Positions 35,946-49,389 of a stretch of DNA of 64,000 nt are shown here, one piece after another. This DNA comes from Niabella beijingensis (GTDB lineage: Bacteria; Bacteroidota; Bacteroidia; Chitinophagales; Chitinophagaceae). How positions within the stretch are numbered: position 1 is the first letter of the stretch; each line of letters begins with the position of its first letter. The notes under the pieces were generated by a model, which did no database searches, was not told the DNA's origin, and saw only the letters and a list, made by a program, of their open reading frames with translations. The position numbers were made by a program, and so were the translations under genes. Location: assembly GCF_020034665.1 (NCBI RefSeq), contig NZ_JAIQDI010000001.1:1-64000 (forward strand), written 5' to 3'.

Positions 35946-36623
35946 TCAGTTTTTTCGTTTTTCATCCAAATGAGCTTTTAGCAATCCTAAAAAAGCCGTT
36001 TTATCGACCCCGAGGGTCATATTATGATGATGTACCCGGCGGTAGGCCAACACTTCATCCAGCAGGAGCACCTCAAGATTCGCCCGTATGATCCGGCTAA
36101 ACCATTCGACAAAATCACCTATGGAAACCTGCTGATCAAAACCACCATACCTATCGAAGAGCTCCCGCCTCCCCAAAAAAGCCGTTTTTGAATACCCTTT
36201 CAGTGATCCGGAGCGGGCGCGCTGGGTAACAGTTCCGTTCCCGGTGAGCGTTTCAAACTCCCGTATCAGGCAAAAGCAGGCCGCCGCAGTACCAGTGCGC
36301 AACGCGCCCAGCTGCTTCTCCAGCTTCTCCGGTTCCCATAAATCATCCGCATCCAAAAAAGCGATATAGGGCGCCGCCCCCTGTGCAATAGCTGTATTGA
36401 GTGTAGCCGACACCCCCCGGTGCGGACATTTTAACAGCCGGATTCTGGAATCACCGGCCATCAGGGACGCAACAATATCGGTGGTGTCATCTTCAGAACC
36501 ATCGTCAGCAACGATTATACGCAGCGCTTTCCAGGTCTGCGCCTGCACCGATTCGATAGCCTCCCGGATAAACTTCCGGCCATTGTATACGGCAATAACA
36601 ACGTCGATCAACGGAGCATTCAT
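35946..36623 (-). CDS. family 2 glycosyltransferase
   Basis: The 225-residue protein is a single GT-A domain: VVIAVYNGRKFIREAIESVQAQT at the start, IVADDGSEDDT, the metal-binding region AFLDADDLW and a C-terminal helix. It likely transfers a sugar from a nucleotide donor in the cytoplasm or at the membrane face. It overlaps the upstream glycosyltransferase by four bases. Confidence 0.85.
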   Translation of the reverse strand: MNAPLIDVVIAVYNGRKFIREAIESVQAQTWKALRIIVADDGSEDDTTDIVASLMAGDSRIRLLKCPHRGVSATLNTAIAQGAAPYIAFLDADDLWEPEKLEKQLGALRTGTAAACFCLIREFETLTGNGTVTQRARSGSLKGYSKTAFLGRRELFDRYGGFDQQVSIGDFVEWFSRIIRANLEVLLLDEVLAYRRVHHHNMTLGVDKTAFLGLLKAHLDEKRKN

Positions 36624-38038
36624 AGCTTCCTGATTTGTCGGTGAAGCAAACCCAGTATCTCCCGGCGCATTACTGTTTTATTAAGACTGGCGTTCCCCCC
36701 GTGGTACCATTTCCGGAGCAACAGGCGCTCTACATTTTTCTCCTGGAAACCGGCGTTACGCAGCCTGCGGACCAGGTCGAAATCACTGCTTACATCCAGC
36801 GATTCATCAAAATTATTCACATCCTGCAACACCTGTTTACGGATCAGCAGGGCGCTGGGCACCAGGCCCCGGTGCGCTTCGCGGAGCTTTTCACTAAAAT
36901 TGGCAGGCAGCACCGTATCCGCCGCACAGGCGAAATGCTGATTGCAGGTAACAAAAGCACAATAAGGGTCCTGCTTCAGCACCTCCCATTGCTCGCGCAA
37001 TTTGTCCGGCATCCATTCATCATCCTGGTCAATAAAAGCAATGATCTCCCCGCGGGCATGCTGAATTCCTTTATTCCGGGCTGCTGCCACGCCGGCATTT
37101 TCCTGTGAAATCATTGTTGCCTGCGGGAAACGGCGACGAATAAACGCATCCCCGCCATCCGTTGACCCGTCATCTATAATCAGTAGTTCCCAATGGGTAT
37201 ATGTTTGTGCCAGTACACTTCCGATCGATTTCGTCACCAGATCTTTTCCATTATACAAAGGCAGGATAATGCTGATCAGCGGATCCGCTTTCCCGATCCG
37301 GTAGTCCTTTAATTGAGGTATATGGGGCATAAGCATTTTATTTTCTCTTCGCCGCGCAGCTTTATGCAATACGTTTAAGAGCTGCAGTTCCCGGATACTT
37401 TTATGCACCGACATATTACTGCCATGTACCCGGTATAAAAGCGTCGTCGCTTCAAGCAGCACTATTTTCACCTGTTGCTCCTTTAACCGCAGCCACCAGT
37501 CAATGTCTTCACTGTAACGCAGGCTTTCATCAAAAAATAACGATTGCTGAAAAAGGGACCTTCGTACCAGCAGGGCGCCGAGGTGAACATGACTCAGCCT
37601 GTTTTCATGATCTTCATAGTTCATCTCCAGCTCCGGTACACCATCCCCGAGAAGATATTTTATCTTCCCACCTGCCACATCCACCGATGCATCCTCCAGC
37701 ACAGGAAGCAGAAGACTTAATTTATTCAGCGGCCATTCGTCATCGGCATCCAGAAAGCTGATCAGCTCACCGGTGGCAGCACCGATACCAGTGTTCCGGG
37801 CTGCAGCAGGGCCCCTCTGTACCTCATGAGCTATAAGTGTTATCTGCGGATATACATCCGCAAGCTGTTCCAGCAATGGTTGGGAAGCGGCATCGGATGC
37901 ATCATTCACAACGATGACCTGAAGCCGGCACCGGCCTCCAAGCACTGCGTCCTGGCCTGCCACCGTTTCCAGGGCGCGAAAAAGTTCCGCTCCGTTATTA
38001 TGTGTAGGTATGATAACACTGATCTCAGGACAATTCAT
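36620..38038 (-). CDS. tandem-domain family 2 glycosyltransferase
   Basis: From the ATG at 38038 the protein has 472 residues and two GT2 domains. The first begins ISVIIPTHNNGAELF with SFLDADDEWP; the second begins ISIILPLYNGKDLV with DDGSTDGGD and AFIDQDDEW. Two active-site sets suggest two transfers or one catalytic and one binding domain. I prefer this start to a longer one ten residues upstream. It overlaps the HprK-like gene by 14 bases. Confidence 0.82.
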   Translation of the reverse strand: MNCPEISVIIPTHNNGAELFRALETVAGQDAVLGGRCRLQVIVVNDASDAASQPLLEQLADVYPQITLIAHEVQRGPAAARNTGIGAATGELISFLDADDEWPLNKLSLLLPVLEDASVDVAGGKIKYLLGDGVPELEMNYEDHENRLSHVHLGALLVRRSLFQQSLFFDESLRYSEDIDWWLRLKEQQVKIVLLEATTLLYRVHGSNMSVHKSIRELQLLNVLHKAARRRENKMLMPHIPQLKDYRIGKADPLISIILPLYNGKDLVTKSIGSVLAQTYTHWELLIIDDGSTDGGDAFIRRRFPQATMISQENAGVAAARNKGIQHARGEIIAFIDQDDEWMPDKLREQWEVLKQDPYCAFVTCNQHFACAADTVLPANFSEKLREAHRGLVPSALLIRKQVLQDVNNFDESLDVSSDFDLVRRLRNAGFQEKNVERLLLRKWYHGGNASLNKTVMRREILGLLHRQIRKL

Positions 38039-39056
38039 CAGAATATAATTGATCGATTGATTGTTCAAACAGTTGAGGGTCGCTTCCTAAACTCCACCGG
38101 AAGCCGGGCAGTACAGTGCTGATCTGCGTCAGCTTCCGGTAGGCGGCCTGACGATGGTGCGGCAAATGATGTAAAGTTGTAGGCGCCATCGCCAGCAATG
38201 CCTGTGCAGGTCTGATGCGTTCAAACAGCGAACGTTCCTGATACGTCACCCTTGGCAGCAATACTGCGCTCAGCGCTGCCGCTGGAATAAATGATCGTTC
38301 CCATAACTCCCGGATATAAAAAATGGCCTTTTGCTGCCCCAGTAATTCTTTATTGACCACATAAGGCATCCAATCTGAAAAACGTTCTTTGAGATTGTCC
38401 GGCTCCACTTTGGCTGTCTGATACAGTGTATATACCACAGGGTGGCCGGTTAATTCCACCCATACATAATCATCACCGAGGTATTGGTACCCCGAACGCA
38501 ACAATGTGAGACAGGAGGTGGACTTTCCCGATCCGCTGGGTCCGGTGATCAGCACACTTTTTCCTGCTTTGGCAACCGCACCGGCATGCACCAACTGTGC
38601 AGGCAGATCCCGCGTCCAGAAATGAAAAAGGGCTCTGAATGGAAAACTGGCTTCCCACCACGGAAGATCCGCTGCTGTTTGTACCCAGTAGATCCCGGTA
38701 CGCTGTTGCCTTGAATAAAGGAACAACTGCCGCTGCCAGGGTTGAAAGAAAAGCTGCACTGCTTCCTGATCGAGTGCCGCATTAAAACCCTGTGCATTGA
38801 ACCCGGGCCACGGCGGTGCCGTTACCCGGTCAGGCAGATCTGCATCCACTGCGTACCAGATCGTCAGCCCGGTTGTTTCGGGTTCCCCTTCAACCAGAAG
38901 ATGCGACAATGCCGGCAGTAACCTGCCCCTTAATATATCTGAAGGCGTATTCAGGCGCACGCTCCTTCCGGCCAGCGATAGACAGTCTGTATGATAAGCA
39001 GGCAACGCTGTGAACAAAGAAAGAAGACGTGAAAAATAATCCGTAAGAAGCAACAT
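38025..39056 (-). CDS. HPr kinase-like P-loop protein
   Basis: From the ATG at 39056 the protein has 343 residues. A P-loop SVLITGPSGSGKSTSCLTL in the second half and LGDDYVWVE downstream match HPr kinase-like proteins of RiPP clusters. In paeninodin-type lasso clusters such a kinase phosphorylates the precursor's C-terminal Ser. The N-terminal half is not recognised. It starts five bases after the PqqD-like gene. Confidence 0.75.
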   Translation of the reverse strand: MLLLTDYFSRLLSLFTALPAYHTDCLSLAGRSVRLNTPSDILRGRLLPALSHLLVEGEPETTGLTIWYAVDADLPDRVTAPPWPGFNAQGFNAALDQEAVQLFFQPWQRQLFLYSRQQRTGIYWVQTAADLPWWEASFPFRALFHFWTRDLPAQLVHAGAVAKAGKSVLITGPSGSGKSTSCLTLLRSGYQYLGDDYVWVELTGHPVVYTLYQTAKVEPDNLKERFSDWMPYVVNKELLGQQKAIFYIRELWERSFIPAAALSAVLLPRVTYQERSLFERIRPAQALLAMAPTTLHHLPHHRQAAYRKLTQISTVLPGFRWSLGSDPQLFEQSIDQLYSDELS

Positions 39057-39061
39057 ATCTT

Positions 39062-39469
39062 TTAGGAGTCTTTCTGTACCACCCACCCCTCTTCATCCAC
39101 ATCATGGATCGGATCCAGCAGCAGTAGGTCCTGCATATCCGCATAACGATTGAGCCGCGGAATTTCGTACCGGACCGGAATATCCGGCTGATCCGCAGCT
39201 GTAATATCCGTCCCTTCTACATTAAGAATGATGTGCTCATCCAGCAGTTGCCGGAAAACAGATGGAAGCTCGGTTTCAATGGCCGCAGTATCCTGTGGCA
39301 ATGCTTCGCAAAAGAACCGGACAACACGGACTTCATCCTCAAAGGGAAGTGCATTGAGCAATGAAACAGCAAGCCCCTGCACACTATAATAAAGCCCCGT
39401 GTCTAAGTTGGCAATAATATATTCTCCGTCAAATACATCAGCAGCGAGACGTGGGTTCAGTACAAACAT
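39062..39469 (-). CDS. PqqD-like peptide-binding protein (RRE)
   Basis: From the ATG at 39469 (135 residues) the product begins MFVLNPRLAADVFDGEYIIANLDTG, a PqqD/RRE winged-helix start, then GLAVSLLNALPFEDEV and a helix with ELPSVFRQLLDEHIIL. Such proteins bind leader peptides for a modifying enzyme. Unlike typical stand-alone PqqD it has a 45-residue C-terminal tail. It is the first gene of the six-gene leftward operon. No precursor ORF could be found within 200 bases upstream. Confidence 0.72.
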   Translation of the reverse strand: MFVLNPRLAADVFDGEYIIANLDTGLYYSVQGLAVSLLNALPFEDEVRVVRFFCEALPQDTAAIETELPSVFRQLLDEHIILNVEGTDITAADQPDIPVRYEIPRLNRYADMQDLLLLDPIHDVDEEGWVVQKDS

Positions 39470-39738
39470 AAAGCAAGAGGTGATTTTTTTGCCTAAAGTA
39501 ATGATAAATATGGAATAAAAGCCAGAATCCCACCACAATTCAGACAAACTCACTCATTTCAGGTAGTAATGGAACACCAGTGTCTGCAATCGATTTTAAC
39601 GCTTCAGGATTAATTATACATCGTATTAAAAGAGGGCTTTACCATAAAATATAAAATGGTCCGGGACCGGCATACGGCTACAAAATGCTTACTACCTGGT
39701 ACGCCGGCCTGGATATAATTTCTTTAATTTCGCAGCAT

Positions 39739-40347
39739 ATGGAATTTTCACAGGACACAAAAAACATTCTGGGCTTACAGCTCCCTACCGACCCGCGCTG
39801 GGTAAATCTTGCAGAAATATCGCTGGAAGCCATACTCACGGACCACGCCTATTGCGAGCAAAAGGCGGCAACCAGTTGTATCTCGCTCATTCAACGATAC
39901 AGCGACCGGGAAAAACTGGTGAAAGAACTGGCGCCTATTGTGACAGAAGAATGGGGGCATTTCCGCCTTGTTTTGCAGGAACTGGAAAAAAGAGGTTTGA
40001 AACTGGGACGTCAGCGAAAGGATGAATATGTAAATGCATTATTGCAGTTCCAGGCAAAAGGCGGAAGCCCGGATGATTTTTTTCTTGACAGATTGTTAAC
40101 CATGGCCATGATCGAAGCCCGGAGCTGTGAACGTTTTAAACGGCTGAGCGAAGGATTGAACGACGCCTATTTAAGCAAGTTCTACCGGCGCTTTATGGAA
40201 AGTGAGGCCGGGCATTATACCCTCTTTATTGAGCTGGCGGAAGCTTACCTGCCCAAAGAAAAAGTAAGGAAGCGCTGGGCCGAATGGCTGGGCCATGAAG
40301 CAGTGATCATGCAGGAAATGGAACTGCGTGGTGATCGTATCCATTAA
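39739..40347 (+). CDS. miaE: tRNA-(ms2io6A)-hydroxylase
   Basis: From the ATG at 39739 the product has 202 residues. It is a ferritin-like di-iron protein with AEISLEAILTDHAYCEQKAA, EEWGHFRLVLQELEKRG and ESEAGHYTLFIELAE, the carboxylate and histidine ligands of MiaE. It hydroxylates the isopentenyl group of ms2i6A at position 37 of certain tRNAs. The longer upstream frame at 39685 is less likely. It is close to a tRNA-rich island but probably housekeeping. Confidence 0.85.
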   Translation: MEFSQDTKNILGLQLPTDPRWVNLAEISLEAILTDHAYCEQKAATSCISLIQRYSDREKLVKELAPIVTEEWGHFRLVLQELEKRGLKLGRQRKDEYVNALLQFQAKGGSPDDFFLDRLLTMAMIEARSCERFKRLSEGLNDAYLSKFYRRFMESEAGHYTLFIELAEAYLPKEKVRKRWAEWLGHEAVIMQEMELRGDRIH

Positions 40348-40906: not shown

Positions 40907-40937
40907 TTTGCTATATAAAAAAGGTTTTACACCTTTG
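40907..40937 (+). promoter_or_regulatory. promoter of the first tRNA-like operon
   Basis: TTTG (40907-40910), exactly 19 bases, then CACCTTTG (40930-40937), one base off the -7 consensus. It reads rightward into the leader ORFs and tRNA-like array. The mismatch could mean dependence on an activator such as the WYL protein. Confidence 0.65.
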
Positions 40938-40962
40938 CATACGCAAATAAAAACAACATAAG

Positions 40963-41055
40963 ATGCAACGCAATTTTTTACATATTGAAACAAAAGCGTG
41001 GTTCAGCCCGACAGGACTGGATACCCGTTGCGGGGCATTTGCTGCAGAAAATTAA
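40963..41055 (+). CDS. leader peptide ORF 1 (30 residues)
   Basis: The short frame begins MQRNFLHIETKAWFSP and ends FAAEN. Its first 16 residues include 15 different amino acids, and 18 of the 20 occur in the whole peptide (Val and Tyr missing). It sits just behind the promoter and 26 bases ahead of a strong intrinsic terminator, the layout of an attenuator. A longer overlapping frame starts at a TTG at 40985 and reads through the terminator; I consider that less likely. Confidence 0.5.
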   Translation: MQRNFLHIETKAWFSPTGLDTRCGAFAAEN

Positions 41056-41081
41056 AAAGAAACTTTTTAATAGAACCCAGG

Positions 41082-41106
41082 CCCCGCAAGAGATTGCGGG
41101 GTTTTT
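41082..41106 (+). terminator. intrinsic terminator A, likely attenuator
   Basis: A perfect 8-bp stem CCCCGCAA/TTGCGGGG with a GAGA loop, followed by five T. It separates leader ORF 1 from the rest of the operon. Confidence 0.85.
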
Positions 41107-41194
41107 GTTTATACAGAATAAAATGAATCGGACCAACTCATCCAGTCGATTTACAACAATGGCACTGTTCCCCAACCTGCCAAACGGAGGAACT

Positions 41195-41254
41195 ATGCAT
41201 TTTCGTAAATCCCAAAAAAGGAGACCAGCGTTTTTATACAGGTATCCTGCGTAA
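41195..41254 (+). CDS. leader peptide ORF 2 (19 residues, basic)
   Basis: The frame MHFRKSQKRRPAFLYRYPA follows a strong ribosome binding site (GGAGGA, six bases upstream). An in-frame ATG at 41159 would give 31 residues. Its stop codon lies in the hairpin atcctgc/gcaggat (41244-41264) and terminator B follows. It resembles a second attenuator module. Confidence 0.45.
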   Translation: MHFRKSQKRRPAFLYRYPA

Positions 41255-41273
41255 AGCAGCAGGATGTTGTAAG

Positions 41274-41302
41274 AACCCGGTCCCAAAAAGACCGGGTTTT
41301 TT
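41274..41302 (+). terminator. intrinsic terminator B, likely attenuator
   Basis: AACCCGGTC/GACCGGGTT, a perfect 9-bp stem with a 7-base loop and a run of six T, located after leader ORF 2. Confidence 0.85.
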
Positions 41303-41325
41303 AATAGTTAAAAAGGAGGTACACA

Positions 41326-41460
41326 ATGAACATCATTTACATAATTATCCTGCTGGTTGTTATCGTAGAAAAAATCACCGGCCGGAAAAAAAACAACCAT
41401 ACGAAAACCGGATCTTCCGGAGCGCGGGTTAATGATCCGGCCTCCGTAAGATTAAGATAA
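41326..41460 (+). CDS. small membrane protein (44 residues)
   Basis: MNIIYIIILLVVIVEKITG forms one hydrophobic segment, followed by a charged tail ending VRLR. An AAGGAGG site lies eight bases before the ATG, which is rare in this phylum and marks it as translated. Function unknown. It lies between terminator B and the tRNA-like array. A weak stem ACACCC/GGGTGT (41489-41513) follows. Confidence 0.55.
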   Translation: MNIIYIIILLVVIVEKITGRKKNNHTKTGSSGARVNDPASVRLR

Positions 41461-41517
41461 ATTATTAGTTGCAGAAAAAGGAGAAAACACACCCGTGAGA
41501 TGCAGCGGGGTGTTTAT

Positions 41518-41591
41518 GTTGGCCTTAGCTTAACAGGTAAAGCGCCACATTGTGGATGTGGAGAACAGGGTTCGAGTCCCGGGGTCAACCA
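41518..41591 (+). tRNA. tRNA-His-like gene, anticodon GTG
   Basis: A 7-bp acceptor with one G-T pair (GTTGGCC/GGTCAAC), D arm GCTT/AAGC with GG in the loop, anticodon stem CCACA/TGTGG with loop ttGTGga and T loop TTCGAGT. Oddities: an extra base before the D stem, an A-G mismatch in the T stem and no clear extra G-1:C73 pair beyond the seven. First of four packed units. Confidence 0.6.
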
Positions 41592-41592
41592 A

Positions 41593-41685
41593 TACGGCTT
41601 GGTGTAAGGGTAACATAGTCATTCCCCTTTCTTTCTGAAAGGTAAGTAGCGGATGATCGTTTTCAGTTCAAATCTGAAAGCCGTA
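41593..41685 (+). tRNA. tRNA-Glu-like gene with extended anticodon arm, anticodon TTC
   Basis: Perfect acceptor TACGGCT/AGCCGTA, D arm GTGT/ACAT with GGG in the loop and T arm TTCAG/CTGAA with loop TTCAAAT. The expected anticodon stem GTCAT/ATGAT (618-622, 653-657) encloses 30 bases instead of 7. Inside is a hairpin CCTTT/AAAGG with loop ctTTCtg, which itself looks like a Glu anticodon arm. So the arm is about doubled in length. Confidence 0.5.
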
Positions 41686-41697
41686 CCGTTTCGGGAT

Positions 41698-41783
41698 TGG
41701 TTTATCGTTCAATGGAACAGAACATCCCACTACGAATGAGGAGATGTGGGTTCCTCCGATAATGGCCGGGGCCGATAAACCAA
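41698..41783 (+). tRNA. tRNA-Arg-like RNA, anticodon ACG, degenerate T arm
   Basis: Acceptor TGGTTTA/TAAACCA, D arm GTTC/GAAC with GG in a 9-base loop, and anticodon loop CTACGAA as in Arg (ACG) tRNAs; its stem TCCCA needs one bulged A on the 3' side. The T arm is not canonical: GTGGG could instead pair with CCCAC. CCGATAA occurs twice near the 3' end. Probably non-functional in translation. Confidence 0.4.
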
Positions 41784-41795
41784 CACCGCAAACAT

Positions 41796-41866
41796 ATGGG
41801 TTTGGTATAATGGTATTATAATGATCTCCAAAATCATCGACACAGGTTCGATTCCTGTAACCCATG
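41796..41866 (+). tRNA. tRNA-Trp-like gene, anticodon CCA
   Basis: Perfect acceptor ATGGGTT/AACCCAT, anticodon stem ATGAT/ATCAT with loop ctCCAaa, perfect T stem ACAGG/CCTGT with loop TTCGATT, and a short D arm of 3 pairs with GG in the loop. CCA is not encoded. It is the most canonical member of the array and could be charged. Confidence 0.7.
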
Positions 41867-41961
41867 CTAAAAATAAAAAAGATGAAAAAAGAATTCATGT
41901 TCATAATGACAGGCAAAACGCATCAGCCGATGCGATGGTTAAATGCACAAACACATTCATT

Positions 41962-42714
41962 ATGGACAAAAAACTTATTAAACAATTTGGAACAGAAATT
42001 CTTTCCTACAGGCTTCGTACCGGGAGACAAAAAACAAGACTCCGGTATGAAGACTTCGACAAACAGTTGCTGGAACTGGATTTCAGACTGGACACATTAC
42101 ATGAAAAAAGAAGGAACCTGGGCTGGGAGCCATTGATCCCCCCTATTCAGAGAGGCTGGAAACGCTTCTTTGTATTGCGGGAAGATGTGGCAGCAGGAAA
42201 ACAGTGCGTATTCTTTGAACAGTTATTACAAAAGATCAACACCACCGACTACAGCTGGAAGAAGGACTTTACGATTAAGAAAAGGAAACGGGGGCGTAAG
42301 ATCTATGTAGTAAGAGAACAGCGCCTGCTGGCACCCTGCGAATGGCAATTCAAAAAACTGGGTTTTTCATCACAGGAGCAGCAGTTCTTTTATGAACAGT
42401 GGCAAACGGATAAATATGGCTACCTGTCGAAACGCTATATTTTTTCAGAACCCTGGCGGTTTATCTTAACGGTAAAGCCGAATATGATCGACAAAAAACG
42501 AGTTACCGATCCGGAGCTTGAGTCTGAAATAGAACAGATCTGGCAGTACCTGAAGCAACGCTGTTATGATCTTAAGCTCGAAAAATTAAGGAACGGAAGT
42601 TCAGGATACAGATACTACCGGTATTATCCGAAAACAAAAGAAGCAGCGTTTTTTAAAAAGAAATGTATAACCCAATGGCTGGACGAAATAAAAGAAGAAC
42701 AGATCCATGATTAA
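41962..42714 (+). CDS. unrecognised basic protein of the RNA island
   Basis: From the ATG at 41962 the protein has 250 residues; a longer frame would run into the tRNA-Trp-like gene. It is rich in Lys, Arg, Tyr and Trp, with WKKDFTIKKRKRGRKIYVV near residue 105, RLLAPCEWQFKKLGF and SGYRYYRYYPKTKEAAFFKKK near the end. I know no family for it. Charge and position between tRNA-like genes and a YkuK gene suggest RNA binding. It ends 11 bases before the YkuK gene. Confidence 0.7.
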   Translation: MDKKLIKQFGTEILSYRLRTGRQKTRLRYEDFDKQLLELDFRLDTLHEKRRNLGWEPLIPPIQRGWKRFFVLREDVAAGKQCVFFEQLLQKINTTDYSWKKDFTIKKRKRGRKIYVVREQRLLAPCEWQFKKLGFSSQEQQFFYEQWQTDKYGYLSKRYIFSEPWRFILTVKPNMIDKKRVTDPELESEIEQIWQYLKQRCYDLKLEKLRNGSSGYRYYRYYPKTKEAAFFKKKCITQWLDEIKEEQIHD

Positions 42715-42725
42715 AATTTAAACCG

Positions 42726-43208
42726 ATGGAACAACAGCAATGGCAGCGGTTCGGCGGAACATTTCTGCACGGACCGGTTGCTGAAGAAGTGAACAAAGCA
42801 TTAGTGGCGGAACAGGAAGCCGGCAATACCATACAGGTTTGCCTGGGCACCGACAGCCAGGTAAAAGGCGCGGTTATTGAGTTTGCAACCGTGATCGTTT
42901 TTGTACGGAAAGGAAAGGGCGCCTTTCTGTTCCTGCAAAAGGAGTTATTGCGCAGGAAAATGAGCATCCGGGAACGGATGTTAATGGAGGTGGATAAAAC
43001 CGTTCAGCTGACCTTACAATTGAATACCGTCTTTGAACAGCACGGCATCGCTCCCGAGCTCCATGTGGACATTAATACTTCTGCGGCATATAAAAGTAAT
43101 GCAGCACTTAGCGAAGCGATGGGCTATGTTTCGGGCATGGGCTGGACCTGTAAAGCAAAACCATTCGCCTTTGCCAGTTCCAGCTGCGCCAACAAAGTTG
43201 TTCAATAA
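42726..43208 (+). CDS. YkuK/DUF458-type RNase H-like protein
   Basis: The 160-residue protein has the DUF458 RNase H-like pattern: IQVCLGTDSQVKGAVIEFATVI (acidic Asp43) and LHVDINTSAAYKSNAA (Asp115), then GYVSGMGWTCKAKPFAFASS. The fold suggests a metal-dependent nuclease; the family's activity is not established. It is probably co-transcribed with the basic protein and the AAA ATPase. Confidence 0.75.
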   Translation: MEQQQWQRFGGTFLHGPVAEEVNKALVAEQEAGNTIQVCLGTDSQVKGAVIEFATVIVFVRKGKGAFLFLQKELLRRKMSIRERMLMEVDKTVQLTLQLNTVFEQHGIAPELHVDINTSAAYKSNAALSEAMGYVSGMGWTCKAKPFAFASSSCANKVVQ

Positions 43209-43237
43209 GGCCGTTGCGAAAAACACCCCTACCAAAC

Positions 43238-43272
43238 ACTTTATGGCCTCCGGTTTTGCGAGGTCATAAAGT
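43238..43272 (+). other. 13-bp hairpin before the AAA ATPase gene
   Basis: ACTTTATGGCCTC pairs with GAGGTCATAAAGT (one G-T pair) around a 9-base loop, 16 bases ahead of the ATG. No T run follows, so a processing site or translation control is more likely than termination. Confidence 0.5.
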
Positions 43273-43287
43273 TTAAAAAAAGAAAAA

Positions 43288-44367
43288 ATGGATCAAACAT
43301 TTATACAAAAGGTAATCAATACCAATGAACTCTTTGGTGATGCATTCATCAATACAAAAGTGCTGTATCTGAATGAGTTTGACAAGTTGCCCAGCACATT
43401 GCTCATCAATCAGCTCGATGGCAGTAAGGCATTTGAGCCGTTAAAACAGCTGCTGGCCGGCCAGACCAGGCATATTTTTCAGCACCAGTGGTTCAAACGT
43501 AAAAACAGAAAGTTCCAGTACGATACAGCTGTCTTTCTTCTGAACAAATGCTGTATCATTGAGCTGGATGAATACTGGTGCGAGATCCTGCACGACGGGA
43601 ATAATACCTCCCTCATTACGGAGATCGTGAACCTGTTGCAGCCATTTCTGGAAAAGAAAAAAAAGGAACCGCTGGAGATCAACCTGATTGTACGCGACGG
43701 AAGCAGACTGCTATTAAAGTCAATGGAAATAAAAAGGAACAAACTGGATCTGGGCCTTTTTTATGAAGATGATTTCAAGGATATCGACGCCTGTATCCGT
43801 CAACGGCTGAACCGGAAAAACGACAAAGGCATCGTACTGCTGCACGGGTTGCCCGGAACGGGAAAGACTTCCTACCTCCGGTACCTGGTCGGAAAAATCC
43901 GGAAGCGGGTGCTCTTTCTCTCCCCCTCCGTTGCGGGGAATTTAATGAGTCCTGATTTTATCCAGTTGCTGATCAATAACCCCGACACGGTACTGATCAT
44001 AGAAGATGCGGAAAACATTATCATGGACCGCCGTTACAGTTCCGATTCCTCAGTATCCAATCTATTAAACATATCAGACGGGTTACTGGCCGACTTTTTA
44101 AACATACAGCTGATCTGCACCTTCAATAGCGCGCTTACGCTTATTGACGGGGCGCTGCTGCGGGAGGGCCGGCTCATTGCAAAATATGAATTCGGAAGAC
44201 TGGGTGTGGAAAAGGCCCGCGCTTTGGCTTGTTACCTGGGTTACCCGCAAACCATTACGGAGCCACGCACACTGGCAGAGATCTGTAATGCGGAACCGGC
44301 TGCAGCCAAACAGGTAAAGCCTGCTTCTATCGGTTTTCAGCTGGCAGCAATGGAAAGCCGGGTTTGA
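43288..44367 (+). CDS. AAA-family ATPase of the RNA island
   Basis: The 359-residue protein has an unrecognised N-terminal part of about 175 residues, then an AAA domain with Walker A GLPGTGKT (187-194), Walker B TVLIIEDAE (234-242), sensor-1 Asn280 in CTFN and REGR at 292-295, a pattern close to BCS1-type AAA proteins. It may remodel RNA-protein complexes. Its gene is convergent with the WYL regulator. Confidence 0.8.
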   Translation: MDQTFIQKVINTNELFGDAFINTKVLYLNEFDKLPSTLLINQLDGSKAFEPLKQLLAGQTRHIFQHQWFKRKNRKFQYDTAVFLLNKCCIIELDEYWCEILHDGNNTSLITEIVNLLQPFLEKKKKEPLEINLIVRDGSRLLLKSMEIKRNKLDLGLFYEDDFKDIDACIRQRLNRKNDKGIVLLHGLPGTGKTSYLRYLVGKIRKRVLFLSPSVAGNLMSPDFIQLLINNPDTVLIIEDAENIIMDRRYSSDSSVSNLLNISDGLLADFLNIQLICTFNSALTLIDGALLREGRLIAKYEFGRLGVEKARALACYLGYPQTITEPRTLAEICNAEPAAAKQVKPASIGFQLAAMESRV

Positions 44368-44432
44368 TCGTTCCAGCCGGGGCAATGGAAATCTACTGGC
44401 CGGTATAACAGATTGTGGCGCAAAGATGCATC

Positions 44433-45461
44433 CTAGCTATCAGACGCCGGAGTCGTATAAAGCTCCTGCATTTTCCGGATGCGTTGCTTGATGATCCGCA
44501 CCATCGACTTCGGGGCGAGCACACGCAGCCCTTCCCCAAAACCGAGCAGTTCCCGTTCCAGCTCAAAATTGGGGATCACCTCGATGGTAAAAGTGGTCCA
44601 CCCATTTGCTGTAGCAATAACCTGCTGCGATGGATGAAGTGGTTTGGTGCGGATATAGGGCGCATGCCGGGTATTGGCCATAAAGGTGATCAATGTGGGG
44701 CGGTCGGCCACATTCCTTGTTACACCGATGATGTCGTTGAAATAAGAGGAAGCATCAAATCCTTTATGGATCAGGTAGGGCTCATCCGGCAGTCCGGCTA
44801 CTGCCGCGATACGGTCCAATGCCAGCGTCAGCAGTTCCTTCCCCTTCCGGTGCATGCACAAAAGGAACCAGCGGTTCCGGAACTCCTTCAGCAGATAAGG
44901 ATACACCACCAGGTCGGCAGGCTGGCGCGCGGAAAAGCTTTGATAAGTAACCTTCAGGGGTCGCTTTTTAATAATCGCCTTATGCAGGGGATCCAGCCAG
45001 TGAATACCGGTAAGCAGCTCGTTCTTTTCAAAATCGATCACCGGGGTTTCCTGCTCGCGTTCTGTGTAGATCTTATCTTCCAGACGTTGCAACAGCTCAT
45101 CCAGGTCATTAAAATGACTAAAGCCTTTGAACTGCTGTAAGAGAAAGGACACATCCTGCAGCACGTCCAGGTCCTGGTGTGATAAGGGAATTTTCGAAAT
45201 ACTGTATTCCGGATCTTCATAGGTATAGTATTTCCGGTCTACCACCAGTATCGGCGCGTTATATCCCAGTTTATCGCTGCGCATGGCATTCAGGTCCATG
45301 CGTATGGTGCGGAGGCTAACTCCTTTTTCGATGCCTTCATATTCATAAAGGGCATCATTACAGGCATCGATCAGGTTTTCGATGGTCCATTTGCGGCGAC
45401 GGTTCTGCAGGCATTTATCAATGGTGCGGTAGCGGATCAGCGCATTGCGGTTAACCGGCAT
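44433..45461 (-). CDS. WYL-domain transcriptional regulator
   Basis: From the ATG at 45461 (342 residues) it has an N-terminal winged HTH (NALIRYRTIDKCLQN, then SLRTIRMDLNAMR) and a WYL domain with KRPLKVTYQSFSARQP and LKEFRNRWFLLCMHRKGK. WYL proteins bind nucleic acid or nucleotide ligands and control defence and DNA- or RNA-stress genes. It is divergent from the second tRNA-like region and likely controls both halves of the island. Confidence 0.85.
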   Translation of the reverse strand: MPVNRNALIRYRTIDKCLQNRRRKWTIENLIDACNDALYEYEGIEKGVSLRTIRMDLNAMRSDKLGYNAPILVVDRKYYTYEDPEYSISKIPLSHQDLDVLQDVSFLLQQFKGFSHFNDLDELLQRLEDKIYTEREQETPVIDFEKNELLTGIHWLDPLHKAIIKKRPLKVTYQSFSARQPADLVVYPYLLKEFRNRWFLLCMHRKGKELLTLALDRIAAVAGLPDEPYLIHKGFDASSYFNDIIGVTRNVADRPTLITFMANTRHAPYIRTKPLHPSQQVIATANGWTTFTIEVIPNFELERELLGFGEGLRVLAPKSMVRIIKQRIRKMQELYTTPASDS

Positions 45462-45563
45462 AGAAAAAAATTTGAGGAAAAATAAATTATTTTTTTGACT
45501 ATGCAAAAAGATTGCACACTTGTGTTCCAGCTTTGTATTGTCAACAAAACGAGTTCTTTTATT

Positions 45564-45760
45564 CACTCCTTAGCATAAAGGGAAGTGCTGCGGAAAAAGT
45601 TTAACGGAGCCGTGGAGTGGCCGGAAGATGTCGTTTAGACCATGCATTTAAATGACCAGATTTTGCAGAAGCACCGAACCCGGAAGAAGGCAGTAGGGAA
45701 GCGCATTTGGAGCCGGCCTGTTGCACCAGCAACGTATGGGTTCGAATCCCATAGGAGTGA
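45564..45760 (+). ncRNA. tRNA-like RNA with long insertion in place of the anticodon arm
   Basis: Perfect acceptor CACTCCT (45564-45570) / AGGAGTG (45753-45759), D arm GCAT/GTGC with GGG in the loop, and T arm ATGGG/CCCAT with loop TTCGAAT. Between D arm and T arm are about 145 bases instead of about 25. They can pair GGCCGG (45619-45624) with CCGGCC (45713-45718), and GTTGC/GCAAC forms a hairpin before the T arm. Confidence 0.5.
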
Positions 45761-45776
45761 CGAGATCAAAAAGGAA

Positions 45777-45895
45777 GTATTGCCGCAGCGATACAACGTT
45801 CTTTGAACAACTTATTGCCGAAAGGCAAACCGCGCTGTTGACCGTTTCTTAAAAGCCAGGCGGGTGCATTTCGGGCACCGCAGTGCAGGCGTTGT
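45777..45895 (+). ncRNA. structured RNA domain
   Basis: Several stems: GTATTG/CGATAC, GTTC/GAAC, TTGCC/GGCAA with a GAAA tetraloop, GCGCTG/CAGTGC, GGTGC/GCACC with a 7-base loop, and a long-range ACAACG (45793-45798)/CGTTGT (45890-45895). No protein frame is convincing on either strand. Family unknown. Confidence 0.4.
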
Positions 45896-45934
45896 AACGT
45901 TCTGTATGCTCTTGTTAGGAATACGGCATAGCAC

Positions 45935-46010
45935 CATAACCTGTGGGGCAGGGGTTCGACTCCCCTTTCCGTTGTAAAACGGAATAGCTCAGTGGAAGAG
46001 CAACAGACAT
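45935..46010 (+). ncRNA. circularly permuted tRNA-like unit (CAT type)
   Basis: Order along the strand: CATAAC, CTGT, T arm AGGGG/CCCCT with loop TTCGACT, acceptor 3' strand TTCCGTT, tetraloop GTAA, acceptor 5' strand AACGGAA, TA, D arm GCTC/GAGC with GG in the loop, ACAG, ACAT. The acceptor strands pair perfectly but are joined by a GNRA loop, and ACAG can pair with CTGT. The molecule's ends would thus be in the anticodon loop. Confidence 0.5.
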
Positions 46011-46013
46011 GCT

Positions 46014-46082
46014 GCGGGTTCGAATCCCGCTCACGCTTCACACGTGATAGTTCAATGGTAGAACACTACACTGTGGATGTAG
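46014..46082 (+). ncRNA. circularly permuted tRNA-His-like unit, anticodon GTG
   Basis: T arm GCGGG/CCCGC with loop TTCGAAT, then TCACG and, after 7 bases, CGTGA as acceptor, TA, D arm GTTC/GAAC with loop AATGGTA, A, and a full anticodon arm CTACA/TGTAG with loop ctGTGga. T arm precedes D arm as in the unit before it. The acceptor is only 5 bp. Confidence 0.5.
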
Positions 46083-46347
46083 GTTTAGAAGAAGCGCATC
46101 ACTTCTTAAAAAAGATGTATACCGGAAAATGACGGCAGGCCCCGGCTCTTCTGTTCAGCGTCACTGATGCATTAAACAGATGGCAGCCCGGAAAGCACCA
46201 GCAGGCGGGCGTAAACGACAGGCACCGGAGATCGCTTTGTTCAGGAACAGGGTACAATAATTTCCGCTCCAAAAACAAACCGGTCTTCAACACCGGTCTG
46301 AAGCCGGCCTCCGTACCGGATGGGTGGGAGCCGGCCGGCATTTTCCA
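46083..46347 (+). other. structured leader upstream of slipin, no gene recognised
   Basis: The stretch holds hairpins TCTGTT/AACAGA, CCGGT/ACCGG with a CTTCAAC loop and GCCGGC/GCCGGC. No T loop or reading frame is convincing. It is probably the 3' part of the second RNA region. Confidence 0.4.
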
Positions 46348-46380
46348 ACCGCTCCTTTCTCCGGAGAGGAGCGGTGTTTT
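46348..46380 (+). terminator. intrinsic terminator C upstream of slipin
   Basis: ACCGCTCC/GGAGCGGT encloses the palindrome CTCCGGAG and is followed by GTTTT. It lies 32 bases before the slipin start, so it can separate the RNA region from the coding genes. Confidence 0.65.
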
Positions 46381-46411
46381 AAACAACATAACTATTTTAA
46401 ACCATAAGATC

Positions 46412-47509
46412 ATGAAAAAAGTAACCGTAAATGCACACCAGGTGGCATTGGTATTTAAAAGAGGGGCTTATCAGAAAATACTCCGGGAGGGCTCCTACTG
46501 GCTGTGGCAGAAAAACGCCATCGTTTATGACTGCACCCAGCCGTTCCTGCCTCCGGTGGAACTGAACCTGCTGTTGCAAGACACCGAACTGGCAACTGCA
46601 CTGGAAGTAATTGAAGTGGCCGATCATGAAATAGCCCTGCAATTTCAAAACGGGTTGTTTCAGAAAGTGCTTACTGCCGGCCGGTATGCATTCTGGAAAT
46701 CGGCGATCCGGTATGATTTTATAAAAGCGGATCTGGGAAAGATCGGGATCACGGAGCATATCGACCGGGCCTTGCTGGAACATAAGCTGGTGACACCTTA
46801 TGTACGGACCTACAAAGTGGAAAGCTATGAAAAAGCATTATTATTTGTAGACGGCAAACCGCAGGGCGAACTGGTACCAGGTACGCACTACTGGTGGAAG
46901 AATGCCATTACCATTCATGTAGCAAAAGCAGATACCCGGCAACAGCAGCTTGAGATCAATGGACAGGAGATCCTGACAAAGGATAAAGCCAACCTGCGGA
47001 TCAATGCATGGGCACAATACCGGGTCAGCAATGCCGAAACAGCATTGCTGGAAAATGCCGCCTATGACCGGCAGTTATATGTAGCCATCCAGCAGGCCCT
47101 GCGGGAATATGTGGCCGGCTTTGCCTTCGACGAGTTACTGGAAAAAAAAGAAAGCATGGCCCCCGTTGTACTGCAGCAGGTGGCCGCAGCAGCAACAGCG
47201 CTCGGCGTACAGGTAACCGGTTTTGGTATCCGGGACATCATTCTTCCGGGTGATATCCGGGAGATCATGAACCAGGTACTGGTGGCAGAGAAAAAGGCAC
47301 AGGCCAATACCATTATGCGGAGAGAAGAGACCGCCAGCACCCGGAGCCTGCTGAATACCGCACGGCTGATGGAAGAAAATGCAATGCTCTGGAAACTGAA
47401 AGAAATGGAATATGTAGAAAAGATCGCAGACAAGATCAGCAACATCAGTATTAACGGCAACGGGGTATTGATCGATCAGCTGAAACAGATCTTTATTCCG
47501 AACAAATAA
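46412..47509 (+). CDS. slipin (SPFH/band 7) protein with three N-terminal repeats
   Basis: A 365-residue SPFH protein. The repeated module VALVFKRGAYQ...WLWQKNAIVYD occurs at residues 9-40, 72-103 (IALQFQNGLFQ...FWKSAIRYD) and 139-170 (KALLFVDG...WWKNAITIHV). The SPFH core (INAWAQYRVSNAETAL, GIRDIILPGDIREIMNQVLVAEK) and a C-terminal helix follow. No membrane helix is seen. Slipins are recurrent partners of RNA-repair genes; the role is unknown. Confidence 0.8.
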   Translation: MKKVTVNAHQVALVFKRGAYQKILREGSYWLWQKNAIVYDCTQPFLPPVELNLLLQDTELATALEVIEVADHEIALQFQNGLFQKVLTAGRYAFWKSAIRYDFIKADLGKIGITEHIDRALLEHKLVTPYVRTYKVESYEKALLFVDGKPQGELVPGTHYWWKNAITIHVAKADTRQQQLEINGQEILTKDKANLRINAWAQYRVSNAETALLENAAYDRQLYVAIQQALREYVAGFAFDELLEKKESMAPVVLQQVAAAATALGVQVTGFGIRDIILPGDIREIMNQVLVAEKKAQANTIMRREETASTRSLLNTARLMEENAMLWKLKEMEYVEKIADKISNISINGNGVLIDQLKQIFIPNK

Positions 47510-47514
47510 ACGGG

Positions 47515-47548
47515 ACCTGTAAGGTTTAGAAGCCCTTACAGGTGTTTT
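47515..47548 (+). terminator. intrinsic terminator D between slipin and the first RlaP gene
   Basis: ACCTGTAAGG/CCTTACAGGT, a perfect 10-bp stem with a 9-base loop followed by GTTTT. Confidence 0.75.
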
Positions 47549-47579
47549 CATCTAATTTTGATTTTTCAAATCATAAGAC

Positions 47580-48335
47580 ATGCGCACCATCATAAAAAGG
47601 AATCTGAAAGAAATCGGGAACCGGAAAAATATAGAATTATTGTATGCCTGCGAAACCGGCAGCCGGGCCTGGGGATTCCCTTCTCCCGACAGCGATTATG
47701 ATGTACGTTTTATTTACCGTCATGAACGGAACTGGTATCTCTCGTTATCCGTAAAAAAAGATTCGATCGATTTTATGGAAAACGAACTTGATATTACCGG
47801 CTGGGACCTGAAGAAATGTTTATTGCTGCTGAAAAAATCCAATGTGCCGCTGATCGAGCGCTTTCAATCCCCGATCGTTTATTTTGCGGCGCCCGGCTTT
47901 AAACAGGAATTCCGGCAACTGATAGCAACCTATTACTCACCAACCGCTGTTTTTTTTCATCATTATTCACTGGCATTAAAATTCAGGGAGCAGGTACAAC
48001 CCGGAAACTCTTTTAAATTAAAAAGTCTTTTTTATATGCTGCGCTCGCTCCTGTCCTGCAACTGGATCCTTCATAATGACCAGATAGTGCCCATGGAGTT
48101 GAACAAACTGCTGCGCTACAACAATGCTGCTATGAATAAAACCATCATGGAACTGGTGGCGTTAAAAGCTACAAAACCGGAAAGCTATTATCACAAGGGC
48201 CCGTCCGCGCTTTTGAAGTGGATCGAAAAACAGTTTGAGCACCTGGCTGCCCCCAGGGAGCAGCTGAAAGTGAACAATACCGGTATGGACGCGCTGGATC
48301 GTTATTTTATAAACAAGCTTAATGAAACCACTTAG
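47580..48335 (+). CDS. RlaP-type nucleotidyltransferase 1 (RNA repair, DNA polymerase beta family)
   Basis: The 251-residue protein has the pol-beta catalytic motif in ACETGSRAWGFPSPDSDYDVRF, with GS at 27-28 and Asp39/Asp41, followed by a helical part. This matches COG3541/PF10127, named RlaP for its place in RNA-repair gene clusters. It may add nucleotides to damaged RNA ends. It overlaps the next gene by 14 bases. Confidence 0.82.
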   Translation: MRTIIKRNLKEIGNRKNIELLYACETGSRAWGFPSPDSDYDVRFIYRHERNWYLSLSVKKDSIDFMENELDITGWDLKKCLLLLKKSNVPLIERFQSPIVYFAAPGFKQEFRQLIATYYSPTAVFFHHYSLALKFREQVQPGNSFKLKSLFYMLRSLLSCNWILHNDQIVPMELNKLLRYNNAAMNKTIMELVALKATKPESYYHKGPSALLKWIEKQFEHLAAPREQLKVNNTGMDALDRYFINKLNETT

Positions 48336-49389
48336 CATAAATGACGTAAAGAAAAATGGCTGGCTCATCCTGGAGGTGATCTCCGGCAGCAGGGCTTACG
48401 GCCTGGATACACCTGCTTCGGACACCGATATTAAAGGTGTGTTCGTATTGCCACAGGAGCTGTATTATTCCATGGAATATACAGCGCAGGTAGCCAATGA
48501 AACGAATGATATTGTGTATTACGAATTAAAACGTTTTATGGAACTGCTGGCCAGGAACAATCCCAATATCCTGGAACTGCTGGCGGTACCGGAGGATTGC
48601 ATCCTGTTACGCCATCCCTTAATGAACCTTTTATCCGCAGAACTTTTTTTATCCCGGCTTTGTGAGCAAACCTTTGCCAACTATGCCTACAGCCAGATCA
48701 AAAAAGCCCGTGGACTGGAAAAAAAGATCGTTAACCCTATGGGCGATGAACGAAAAACCCCGGCAGACTTCTGCTATGTTTATACCGGTAAAAACAGTAT
48801 TCCTTTAGCAGATTATCTCAGGCAACAGTCGTTTACGCAGGAATCAATGGGACTGGCAGCACTCTCCCACTTCAGGGATTGCTACCTGTTATATCATTCA
48901 TCACGGAATGAATATAGCGGAATATTCAGAAAAGAGATTTCCAATGATGTTTGTACCAGTTCCATCCCGCGGGAGGCAGTACCCATTGGCCTCCTTTATT
49001 TTAACCGGGATGGTTATTCGGTATACTGTAAAAAATACAAAGAATACCGGGATTGGGAGAAAGAGCGGAATGCCGCGCGCTATCAGAGCACCATGGATCA
49101 TGGCAAGAACTACGATGCGAAAAATATGATGCATGTATTCCGTTTGCTCAGGATGGCAGAAGAGATCGTTTCGGAGAACAGGATCAATGTCAGAAGAACC
49201 GACCGCCCGTTGCTGCTGCAGATAAAAAACGGGGAACGCGAATATGACGAACTGGTACAGGAGGCAGACAAGATGATGCAGGGTCTAAAAGGACTTTATC
49301 TTAAAAGCACCCTGCCCTACACCCCGGATCTCAATGCCGTTAACCAGATCCTGGTACGCATGCGTACTGCCTATTACCAACAGCAATAG
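48322..49389 (+). CDS. RlaP-type nucleotidyltransferase 2
   Basis: The 355-residue paralogue has EVISGSRAYGLDTPASDTDI (GS 22-23, Asp34/Asp36) and a longer C-terminal part with RFM-like helices (RFMELLARNNPNILELL) and MDHGKNYDAKNMMHVFRLLRMAEEI. It starts inside the end of RlaP1, so the two are translated together. The diverged C-terminal parts suggest different RNA targets. It is the last gene of the island. Confidence 0.82.
   Translation: MKPLSINDVKKNGWLILEVISGSRAYGLDTPASDTDIKGVFVLPQELYYSMEYTAQVANETNDIVYYELKRFMELLARNNPNILELLAVPEDCILLRHPLMNLLSAELFLSRLCEQTFANYAYSQIKKARGLEKKIVNPMGDERKTPADFCYVYTGKNSIPLADYLRQQSFTQESMGLAALSHFRDCYLLYHSSRNEYSGIFRKEISNDVCTSSIPREAVPIGLLYFNRDGYSVYCKKYKEYRDWEKERNAARYQSTMDHGKNYDAKNMMHVFRLLRMAEEIVSENRINVRRTDRPLLLQIKNGEREYDELVQEADKMMQGLKGLYLKSTLPYTPDLNAVNQILVRMRTAYYQQQ

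Follow-up and report, generated by a model that had tools for sequence, protein, structure and literature searches.

In 2016 Burroughs and Aravind reportedly described Band-7/RlaP RNA-repair systems, in which an SPFH/Band-7 protein occurs with a cognate tRNA-like RNA and with RlaP, and the wider association between slipin and tRNA-like RNA considered below is probably the one that they reported. Of other related systems, published accounts state that RlaP has the predicted role of adding back missing nucleotides ahead of ligation (PMC7824862), that tRNA halves are the signal sensed by RtcR in the operon of Salmonella (PMC7790460), and that changed anticodon loops of phage tRNAs have been proposed to confer insensitivity to tRNases (PMC10264068). 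The locus described here is an island at positions 40907 to 49389 of a 64,000-nucleotide stretch of the Niabella beijingensis genome (assembly GCF_020034665.1, contig NZ_JAIQDI010000001.1, positions 1 to 64,000; "the window"), which contains an SPFH protein, RlaP and tRNA-like RNA; the general outline of SPFH protein, RlaP, tRNA-like RNA and RtcB belongs to a known kind of system. The island is interpreted here as a rescue kit that would be induced when tRNAs are destroyed and whose first operon would be controlled by ribosome-mediated attenuation, a reading to which a probability of roughly two in three is assigned. That the locus may answer tRNA cleavage had been suggested in a first-pass annotation of the sequence, and an answer to tRNA loss is now considered likely; the leader open reading frames (ORFs) and terminators at 40963 to 41299, where that annotation described only folds, had been overlooked.

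The island is made up of two operons, separated by a WYL gene, and is flanked by MiaE/GNAT genes and DoxX/EEP genes. Operon 1 consists, in order, of leader ORF 1, a terminator, leader 2, a second terminator, a tRNA array, orfX, YkuK and AAA, and operon 2, divergent from the WYL gene, of a permuted tRNA-like RNA of about 160 nt, slipin and two RlaP genes. Three congeneric loci (L020, L021 and L022) have the same order at the same site, the exceptions being orfX, unseen in L021, and the GNAT gene in L022. All features given below lie on the forward strand of the window except the WYL gene.

Leader ORF 1 (40963 to 41055) has 30 codons and encodes MQRNFLHIETKAWFSPTGLDTRCGAFAAEN, in which 18 of the 20 amino acids occur. 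It is followed by intrinsic terminator 1 (41080 to 41106), a hairpin with a T run, and then by leader ORF 2 (41123 to 41254; 43 codons) with its own terminator 2 (41273 to 41299). The stretch of about 200 nt 5' of the array is kept in 33 other loci, each with a homologue of leader ORF 1, and the first 30 residues of these 34 leaders contain 16 to 20 different amino acids (mean 18.1), with all 20 present in three of them. Among 4854 control 30-mers, the mean is 14.3 (sd 1.6) and at least 18 different amino acids are found in 1.7%. When residues were shuffled within columns, a procedure that preserves the residue make-up of each position, the 25 distinct leaders of exactly 30 residues gave an observed mean of 18.48 against 16.69 for 2000 rounds of shuffling, the maximum of which was 17.44; as the shuffles never reach the observed coverage, the residues of a leader complement one another. 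In a scan blind to strand and homology, ORFs of 24 to 60 codons with at least 17 different amino acids are about equally frequent on the slipin strand and the opposite one (1100 versus 1063), whereas those followed by a terminator number 105 versus 29.

A second feature of these leaders is that part of the ORF can pair with the terminator. In the window, an antiterminator arm within leader ORF 1, TTGCGGGGC (41028 to 41036), is complementary to the 5' arm of the terminator, and in L115 both sides of the pairing have changed together, the ORF reading TTGCAGGGC and the arm GCCCTGCAA. Across the 34 leaders the stem between ORF and terminator arm averages 7.5 bp; 65% of the leaders, but 7% of shuffles, have a stem of 7 bp or more. 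Over all leaders, 84% of cells retain the pairing, against 39-54% when the two sides are slid relative to each other. Stall-point folding in silico, which treats free RNA only, leaves 8-9 of the 9 terminator-arm bases of the window paired when the ribosome is placed at codons 4, 9, 13, 16 or 18 (dG -22 to -34), 3 of 9 when it is placed at codon 20, and fewer at later codons. An ORF with an intrinsic terminator in every one of the 34 loci, together with an alternative antiterminator pairing, is the arrangement of an attenuator, and is best read as one of the trp type that has been extended to almost all tRNAs.

In such a switch, a leader ORF whose translation needs nearly all amino acids would be translated while the RNA is being made. 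With all tRNAs at hand, the ribosome would cover the 3' codons of the ORF and the terminator would form; were a needed tRNA missing, the ribosome would stall early, leaving the 3' codons free to pair with the 5' arm of the terminator. Read-through, thus set by stalling in the leader, would yield spare tRNAs, one per anticodon and many with changed anticodon loops that tRNases may not cut, as well as YkuK and AAA and, in relatives, also slipin, RlaP and RtcB. By way of the ribosome, the leader would do a job like that of RtcR. Computation shows the parts and their order, their conservation, the amino-acid coverage, the potential for pairing and the make-up of the arrays; we infer that switching of this sort takes place in the cell, that the spare tRNAs resist nucleases and that the associated enzymes carry out repair.

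The codons used by the leaders favor those that array tRNAs read. In 32 leaders (L043 and L067 were dropped from the codon and composition analyses), ATA accounts for 35 of 69 Ile codons against a background of 23%, AGY for 49 of 72 Ser codons (45%), CGY for 35 of 48 Arg codons (39%), CTA for 12 of 55 Leu codons (5%) and CAA for 33 of 45 Gln codons (39%). These observations bear on the alternative that the leader is a general translation-stress switch, reporting any slowing of ribosomes, as by antibiotics or cold, with tRNA loss being one trigger among others. Anabaena favors such a view, in that a silent operon of 26 tRNAs is induced there by translation inhibitors and is under a repressor that has rtcB and a slipin gene among its further targets (PMC10272220). 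A general switch would, however, leave unexplained both the choice of codons and the complementarity by which residues add up to 18-20 amino acids, and this explanation is regarded as unlikely.

Relatives of the locus show what the tRNA array is composed of. Slipin relatives were sought by a scan of genome contigs, which gave at least 529, of which the best 80 loci (L040-L119) were retained; with the additional loci, 93 were left for counting after L020 (a duplicate of L040), L027 (a duplicate of L075) and L034 had been dropped. ARAGORN finds 322 tRNAs on the slipin strand from -6 to +3 kb, a count that still includes the duplicate loci L020 and L027, and in the 6 kb upstream of slipin 309 tRNAs lie on the same strand versus 5 on the opposite one. 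Among L040-L119, at least one array tRNA occurs in 55 of 80 loci, at least three in 37, at least five in 25 and at least ten in 10, with the longest run before slipin reaching 15 (L049). Among the 322 tRNAs there is only one case of an anticodon that occurs twice within an array. The composition is unlike that of housekeeping tRNAs: Ile-TAT makes up 13 of 316 unique array tRNAs and none of 128 housekeeping ones, and tRNAs for Ala, Val, Thr and Gly are scarce (11/316 versus 36/128).

The anticodon loops of these tRNAs have diverged at a particular position. Relative to a reference of 128 housekeeping tRNAs, drawn from five genomes of which four contributed partial sets, position 37 differs from the invariant housekeeping base in 112 of 257 array tRNAs, versus 5 of 123 between housekeeping sets. 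For some isoacceptors the shifts run in a fixed direction, from A to G in Phe (22/29), away from G in His (21/25), from G to A in Gln (13/20), Pro (17/17) and Leu-TAG (8/11), and from A to T or G in Asp (18/19) and Glu (11/15); no change is seen in Lys, Asn, Tyr, Ile-GAT, Cys and Trp. The held-out loci, 12 new ones from a phylum sample of 13 in which L289 duplicates L107, behave similarly, with up to 14 array tRNAs, none of them on the other strand, anticodons that never repeat and a different position 37 in 14 of 31 testable tRNAs. As a separate observation, a MiaE-type gene (39685 to 40347), of the family that hydroxylates tRNA position 37, adjoins the island here as well as in L020, L021 and L022, and the position that this family targets is the one that differs in the array tRNAs of relatives.

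Whether such tRNAs are meant for translation is a question on which the arrays themselves bear. They could instead be decoys or baits for tRNases, or sensors, a role consistent with the broken arms of some array tRNAs, as in the window, and with the competitive-inhibitor role suggested for the tRNA-like domain of YrlA (PMC7790460). Against this, the discriminator base matches that of housekeeping tRNAs in 279 of 311 array tRNAs, U33 is present in 309 of 316, and the arrays hold one tRNA per anticodon; given the discriminator bases, most array tRNAs look chargeable. The decoy explanation seems somewhat less probable still than that of a general stress switch.

The array of the window itself (array 1) is decayed. 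At 41518 to 41867, ARAGORN reports tRNA-His, one undefined tRNA and tRNA-Trp. The first, tRNA-His(GTG) at 41518 to 41590, scores 45 bits with Rfam; it is followed by a tRNA-like RNA at 41593 to 41687 (ARAGORN) with an anticodon arm that by eye is lengthened, by a tRNA-Arg(ACG)-like element at 41697 to 41783, in which a palindromic insert breaks the T-arm (edges and insert placed by eye) and whose counterpart in L020 and L021 is named Arg(ACG) by ARAGORN, and by an intact tRNA-Trp(CCA) at 41796 to 41867 (ARAGORN; 62.8 bits with Rfam). The three weakest of the 43 tRNA matches listed in the 6.59-Mb genome that contains the window (G000) all lie in the island. Palindromic inserts (like CTCCCGATAGC...TCGGGA) were seen by eye to break T-loops or D-arms of several tRNA-like genes, at 41697 to 41783 of the window, in the tRNA-His of L021 and L022, and in the second module of L022.

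Leaders, arrays and kit genes tend to go together. With the leaders found by BLAST and by the scan joined into one set, leaders are positively associated with arrays of at least three tRNAs (33/20 versus 9/31, p 1.5e-4) and with YkuK (28/3 versus 25/37, p 2e-6); for WYL and leaders the counts are 15/18 versus 38/22 (p 0.13). A leader model matches 55 of 99 related genomes, many of the matches being short, weak and centered on the terminator. Ten full-length places away from slipin were fetched, of which nine were readable (L338 was too short); second copies in G017, G022, G024, G077 and G081 were left out, G025 has a slipin remnant elsewhere and G068 lay outside the slipin search. Seven of these nine slipin-free loci run into array tRNAs, YkuK, AAA or RtcB. 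In L331, which occupies the same chromosomal site but has lost slipin, the leader precedes tRNAs, orfX and YkuK; in L332 (18 amino acids) it precedes tRNAs, YkuK and a piece of AAA, in L333 YkuK and AAA, in L336 tRNA-Phe, YkuK, AAA and RtcB, and in L340 two tRNAs and AAA. The leaders of L334, which contains all 20 amino acids, and of L335 lie directly 5' of RtcB, and a weaker match in G024 lies 1.2 kb 5' of RtcB.

Were leader 1 an ordinary conserved small protein and its terminator incidental, conservation of particular residues would be expected, and R3, H7, S15, P16 and G24 are indeed conserved among 26 leaders of 30 residues. Yet mean pairwise identity is only 37% with coverage of the amino acids kept, a terminator lies 3' of the leader stop in 34 of 34 loci and the codons of the ORF are complementary to it, all of which makes this explanation improbable. 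Least probable of all is an origin of the arrays as remnants of tRNAs from phages or for codon supply that came to lie next to repair genes. In its favor, 28 phage records match the one array compared with phages, that of L050, over short stretches of one or two tRNAs; against it, the phage records and viral contigs searched hold no slipin relative, and strand order, one-of-each content and the link to leaders are conserved. On the comparison with phages and the search for slipin relatives, a phage origin was rejected.

Several observations nonetheless weigh against an attenuator-controlled rescue kit. In the window, the array is decayed, with Trp alone fully intact and His retaining G37, and leader 2 contains only 14 different amino acids. 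Covariation of the antiterminator is modest, its score being reached by 39 of 500 shuffles, and the complete leader RNA folds best with the terminator, so that kinetics must decide. Leaders share descent, which makes the p-values too small. Because the second leaders with their own terminator (26 ORFs, of which 8 contain all 20 amino acids, from 25 loci) and 12 Flavobacteriaceae leaders, in which the terminator sequence is different, were chosen by the scan with its threshold of at least 17 different amino acids, their coverage is no test. The favored leader codons may simply be rare or A-ending ones; there is no preference for Leu TTR in the 32 leaders (p 0.09), and the use of amino acids in leaders shows no significant correlation with what the arrays contain (Spearman 0.26, p 0.28). 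Among the 12 held-out loci, a leader with terminator is found in only 5 and at least one array tRNA in only 8. Finally, seven of the nine slipin-free leaders contain only 15-17 amino acids, and the leader-like loci L337 and L339 precede no recognized part of the kit.

The second tRNA-like element of the island represents a quite different structural type. The first-pass annotation had seen two regions dense in tRNA-like folds, and tRNA matches do occur in both, the Rfam tRNA model giving 29.7 and 28.1 bits in the second; the two differ in kind, the first being a bank of ordinary shape and the second a double permuted tRNA-like RNA (45928 to 46086) with modules at 45950 to 46001 and 46014 to 46064. 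A decayed tRNA array in the second region is ruled out by a conserved permuted fold with covariation across genera. A T-arm followed by a D-arm, 280-680 nt before slipin, occurs at least once in 88 of 93 loci and at least twice in 58. This search set no requirement for a stem between the arms, and the intervening stretch closes as an acceptor hairpin of at least 6 bp in 103 of 149 modules; swapping the halves between loci leaves 15.7 such modules on average and never more than 27. RNAalifold predicts 38 pairs in 29 aligned double modules (alignment A2), 33 of them changed on both sides; A2 was selected with pairing required in the acceptor, T and D stems, so that only the halves-swap comparison and two anticodon-type stems, which lay outside the selection criteria and also covary, are free of bias.

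A covariance model of this RNA finds it upstream of slipin in all 12 held-out loci at E<0.01, nine scoring 114-136 bits and L293, L300 and L295 scoring 50, 34 and 18. In 99 related genomes, 15 matches reach 80 bits or more; 14 of them are next to slipin and one is a tandem pair of ordinary tRNAs. Junctions of tandem tRNAs do match both in the scan and in the model and were considered, and rejected, as the source of the slipin-proximal matches, which score 50-147 bits in most loci and 27-49 in a few; matches away from slipin in relatives reach at most 69 bits, except for a tandem tRNA duplicate in G012 at 86. The order of the modules, T-arm, acceptor hairpin and D-arm, is that of YrlA, the model of which (RF02553) gives 32.1 bits in the window and 26.8-40.1 in relatives, below the gathering cut-off of 69; as a tandem pair of ordinary tRNAs in L254 also gives 32.1 bits, this score alone proves little. 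Farther afield, T-arm pieces before slipin score 47 bits with the model in Photobacterium, 22.8 in Subdoligranulum, 21.5 in Burkholderia, 14.6 in E. coli and 14.1 in Citrobacter. In the Citrobacter record (L274, 2960 to 6913), an annotated rtcR gene points away from slipin and a nucleotidyltransferase gene, and the space between holds a T-arm and a hairpin; no RtcB was found in the 11 kb examined.

The protein genes named by the first-pass annotation (RlaP pair, slipin, AAA, YkuK and WYL) are all borne out by Pfam. Behind array 1 lie orfX (41965 to 42714), which encodes a basic protein without a Pfam match and for which Foldseek gave nothing below E 0.001, a YkuK-type RNase H-like protein (42726 to 43208; YkuK/RNaseH_like, E 1.7e-31) and an AAA ATPase (43288 to 44367). 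The WYL regulator (44433 to 45566, reverse strand; WYL+WCX) is divergent from the slipin operon, in which slipin (46412 to 47509; Band_7, E 3.7e-30), with three N-terminal beta repeats, is followed by RlaP nucleotidyltransferases 1 (47580 to 48335) and 2 (48322 to 49389), with RlaP E-values of 4.9e-67 and 1.4e-23 for the pair. Solved relatives of RlaP1 and WYL were sought by sequence and none was found at the limits used. The predicted structure of slipin resembles, by Foldseek, SPFH proteins of the stomatin type; a resemblance to the major vault protein, which Foldseek also ranks among the matches, is less certain. Slipin lacks a strongly hydrophobic segment and, given the vault match, might form a soluble ring or cage; that slipin serves as a scaffold is a guess. 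As for the suggestion that these proteins process or extend the tRNA-like RNAs, nothing in the present analysis bears it out. Weak matches apart from the WYL protein led PADLOC defence families to be rejected for the island.

Around slipin, the neighborhood was counted in 92 loci, L033 also being dropped, with the slipin ORF called in 91. RtcB lies within 7 kb in 41 of the 92, all 43 copies on the slipin strand, and RlaP in 20, in agreement with the RNA-repair context that had been proposed; YkuK is found in 31, AAA in 19 and orfX in 10. WYL lies within 7 kb in 33 loci, all but one of its 39 ORFs being opposite in strand to slipin, and arrays of at least three tRNAs are rarer where it is present (7/26 versus 35/25, p 0.0009). 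Because WYL is divergent from operon 2 and arrays are rarer where it occurs, the slipin, RlaP and Y-RNA-like permuted RNA of the window are probably under WYL control; operon 1 is probably governed by the translated attenuator and not only by WYL. Slipin is present in 17 of 59 related genomes, G000 counted (broken, remnant or distant in G003, G025 and G030); in a sample of 296 Bacteroidota, 14 have it at E 1e-60. The gene set recurs with tRNA-like RNAs in other Bacteroidota, and the first-pass annotation was thus not overturned by a lack of conservation. Its statement that RtcB and Ro60 are absent stands as regards RtcB in the window and Ro60/TROVE in G000 (the latter is present in 1 of 59 genomes), but RtcB does occur elsewhere in G000 as a lone gene (G000:C1:3788170-3789606).

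Other features accompany the two operons. Small ORF 3 (41326 to 41460; 44 aa) encodes a peptide that is membrane-like by eye; L045, L050, L051 and L060 have similar peptides in the corresponding position, alike at the C-terminus (HPAxYxLR type). Inverted repeats with TGCA at 40934 to 40947 and 45502 to 45516, upstream of both operons, are candidate WYL operators. In the operons of L074, L093, L094, L097, L102, L108, L111 and L109 (5030 to 5722), from Flavobacteriaceae and kin, there is an added protein, either an RNase_T-type exonuclease or an RF-1-domain release factor (one member of each was tested). At 36620 to 39553 of the window, a glycosyltransferase lies beside ORFs that by eye look HPr-kinase-like and PqqD-like, perhaps a peptide-modification cluster.

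Taken at its broadest, the interpretation would be that of a pan-tRNA sensor of Bacteroidota, in which a leader selected to hold almost every amino acid, often two in series, would turn the loss of any tRNA into transcription of a matching bank of tRNase-resistant replacement tRNAs and of repair enzymes, and a vault-like slipin would bind the double permuted RNA as a repair scaffold; on this composite, belief and doubt are evenly balanced. To our knowledge, a single switch that would report the loss of almost any tRNA is undescribed. Among the literature matches listed, as far as their titles and abstract openings go, neither an all-amino-acid leader before tRNAs or repair genes nor a one-of-each tRNA bank behind such an attenuator was found. 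If true, the switch would report directly on defence systems and toxins that cleave tRNAs, and three open topics would be joined: the replacement of cleaved tRNAs, the role of the tRNA-like RNAs of repair operons, and the reason why SPFH scaffolds occur together with RNA ligases.

Comparison with known systems illustrates how familiar parts are combined here. With the RtcB/RtcA RNA repair operon the island and its relatives share the RtcB family, a tRNA-like noncoding RNA, the answer to cleaved tRNAs and, in Citrobacter, a slipin and nucleotidyltransferase gene beside rtcR; they differ in having WYL, a leader attenuator and a tRNA array and, in the window, in being without RtcB. The Y RNA YrlA (RF02553) has the same order of T-arm, closed acceptor hairpin and D-arm, whereas here there are two tandem modules, below the Rfam cut-off and without Ro60; the Ro60/Y RNA system further differs in its TROVE (Ro60) protein, which was not found in G000. 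The Anabaena trn operon likewise has a silent tRNA array tied by a regulator to rtcB and slipin, but uses a protein repressor, TrcR, and keeps its array on a megaplasmid and the repair genes on the chromosome (PMC10272220). Phage tRNA arrays share loops altered relative to host tRNAs, with a proposed insensitivity to tRNases (PMC10264068), but the arrays described here are in bacterial genomes, in a repair operon and behind an attenuator. Attenuators of the trp and his type, finally, have the same short leader ORF, terminator and alternative pairing by codons of the ORF; here the regulatory codons, rather than specifying a single amino acid, would cover almost the whole set, and tRNAs and repair genes, not biosynthesis, would be controlled.

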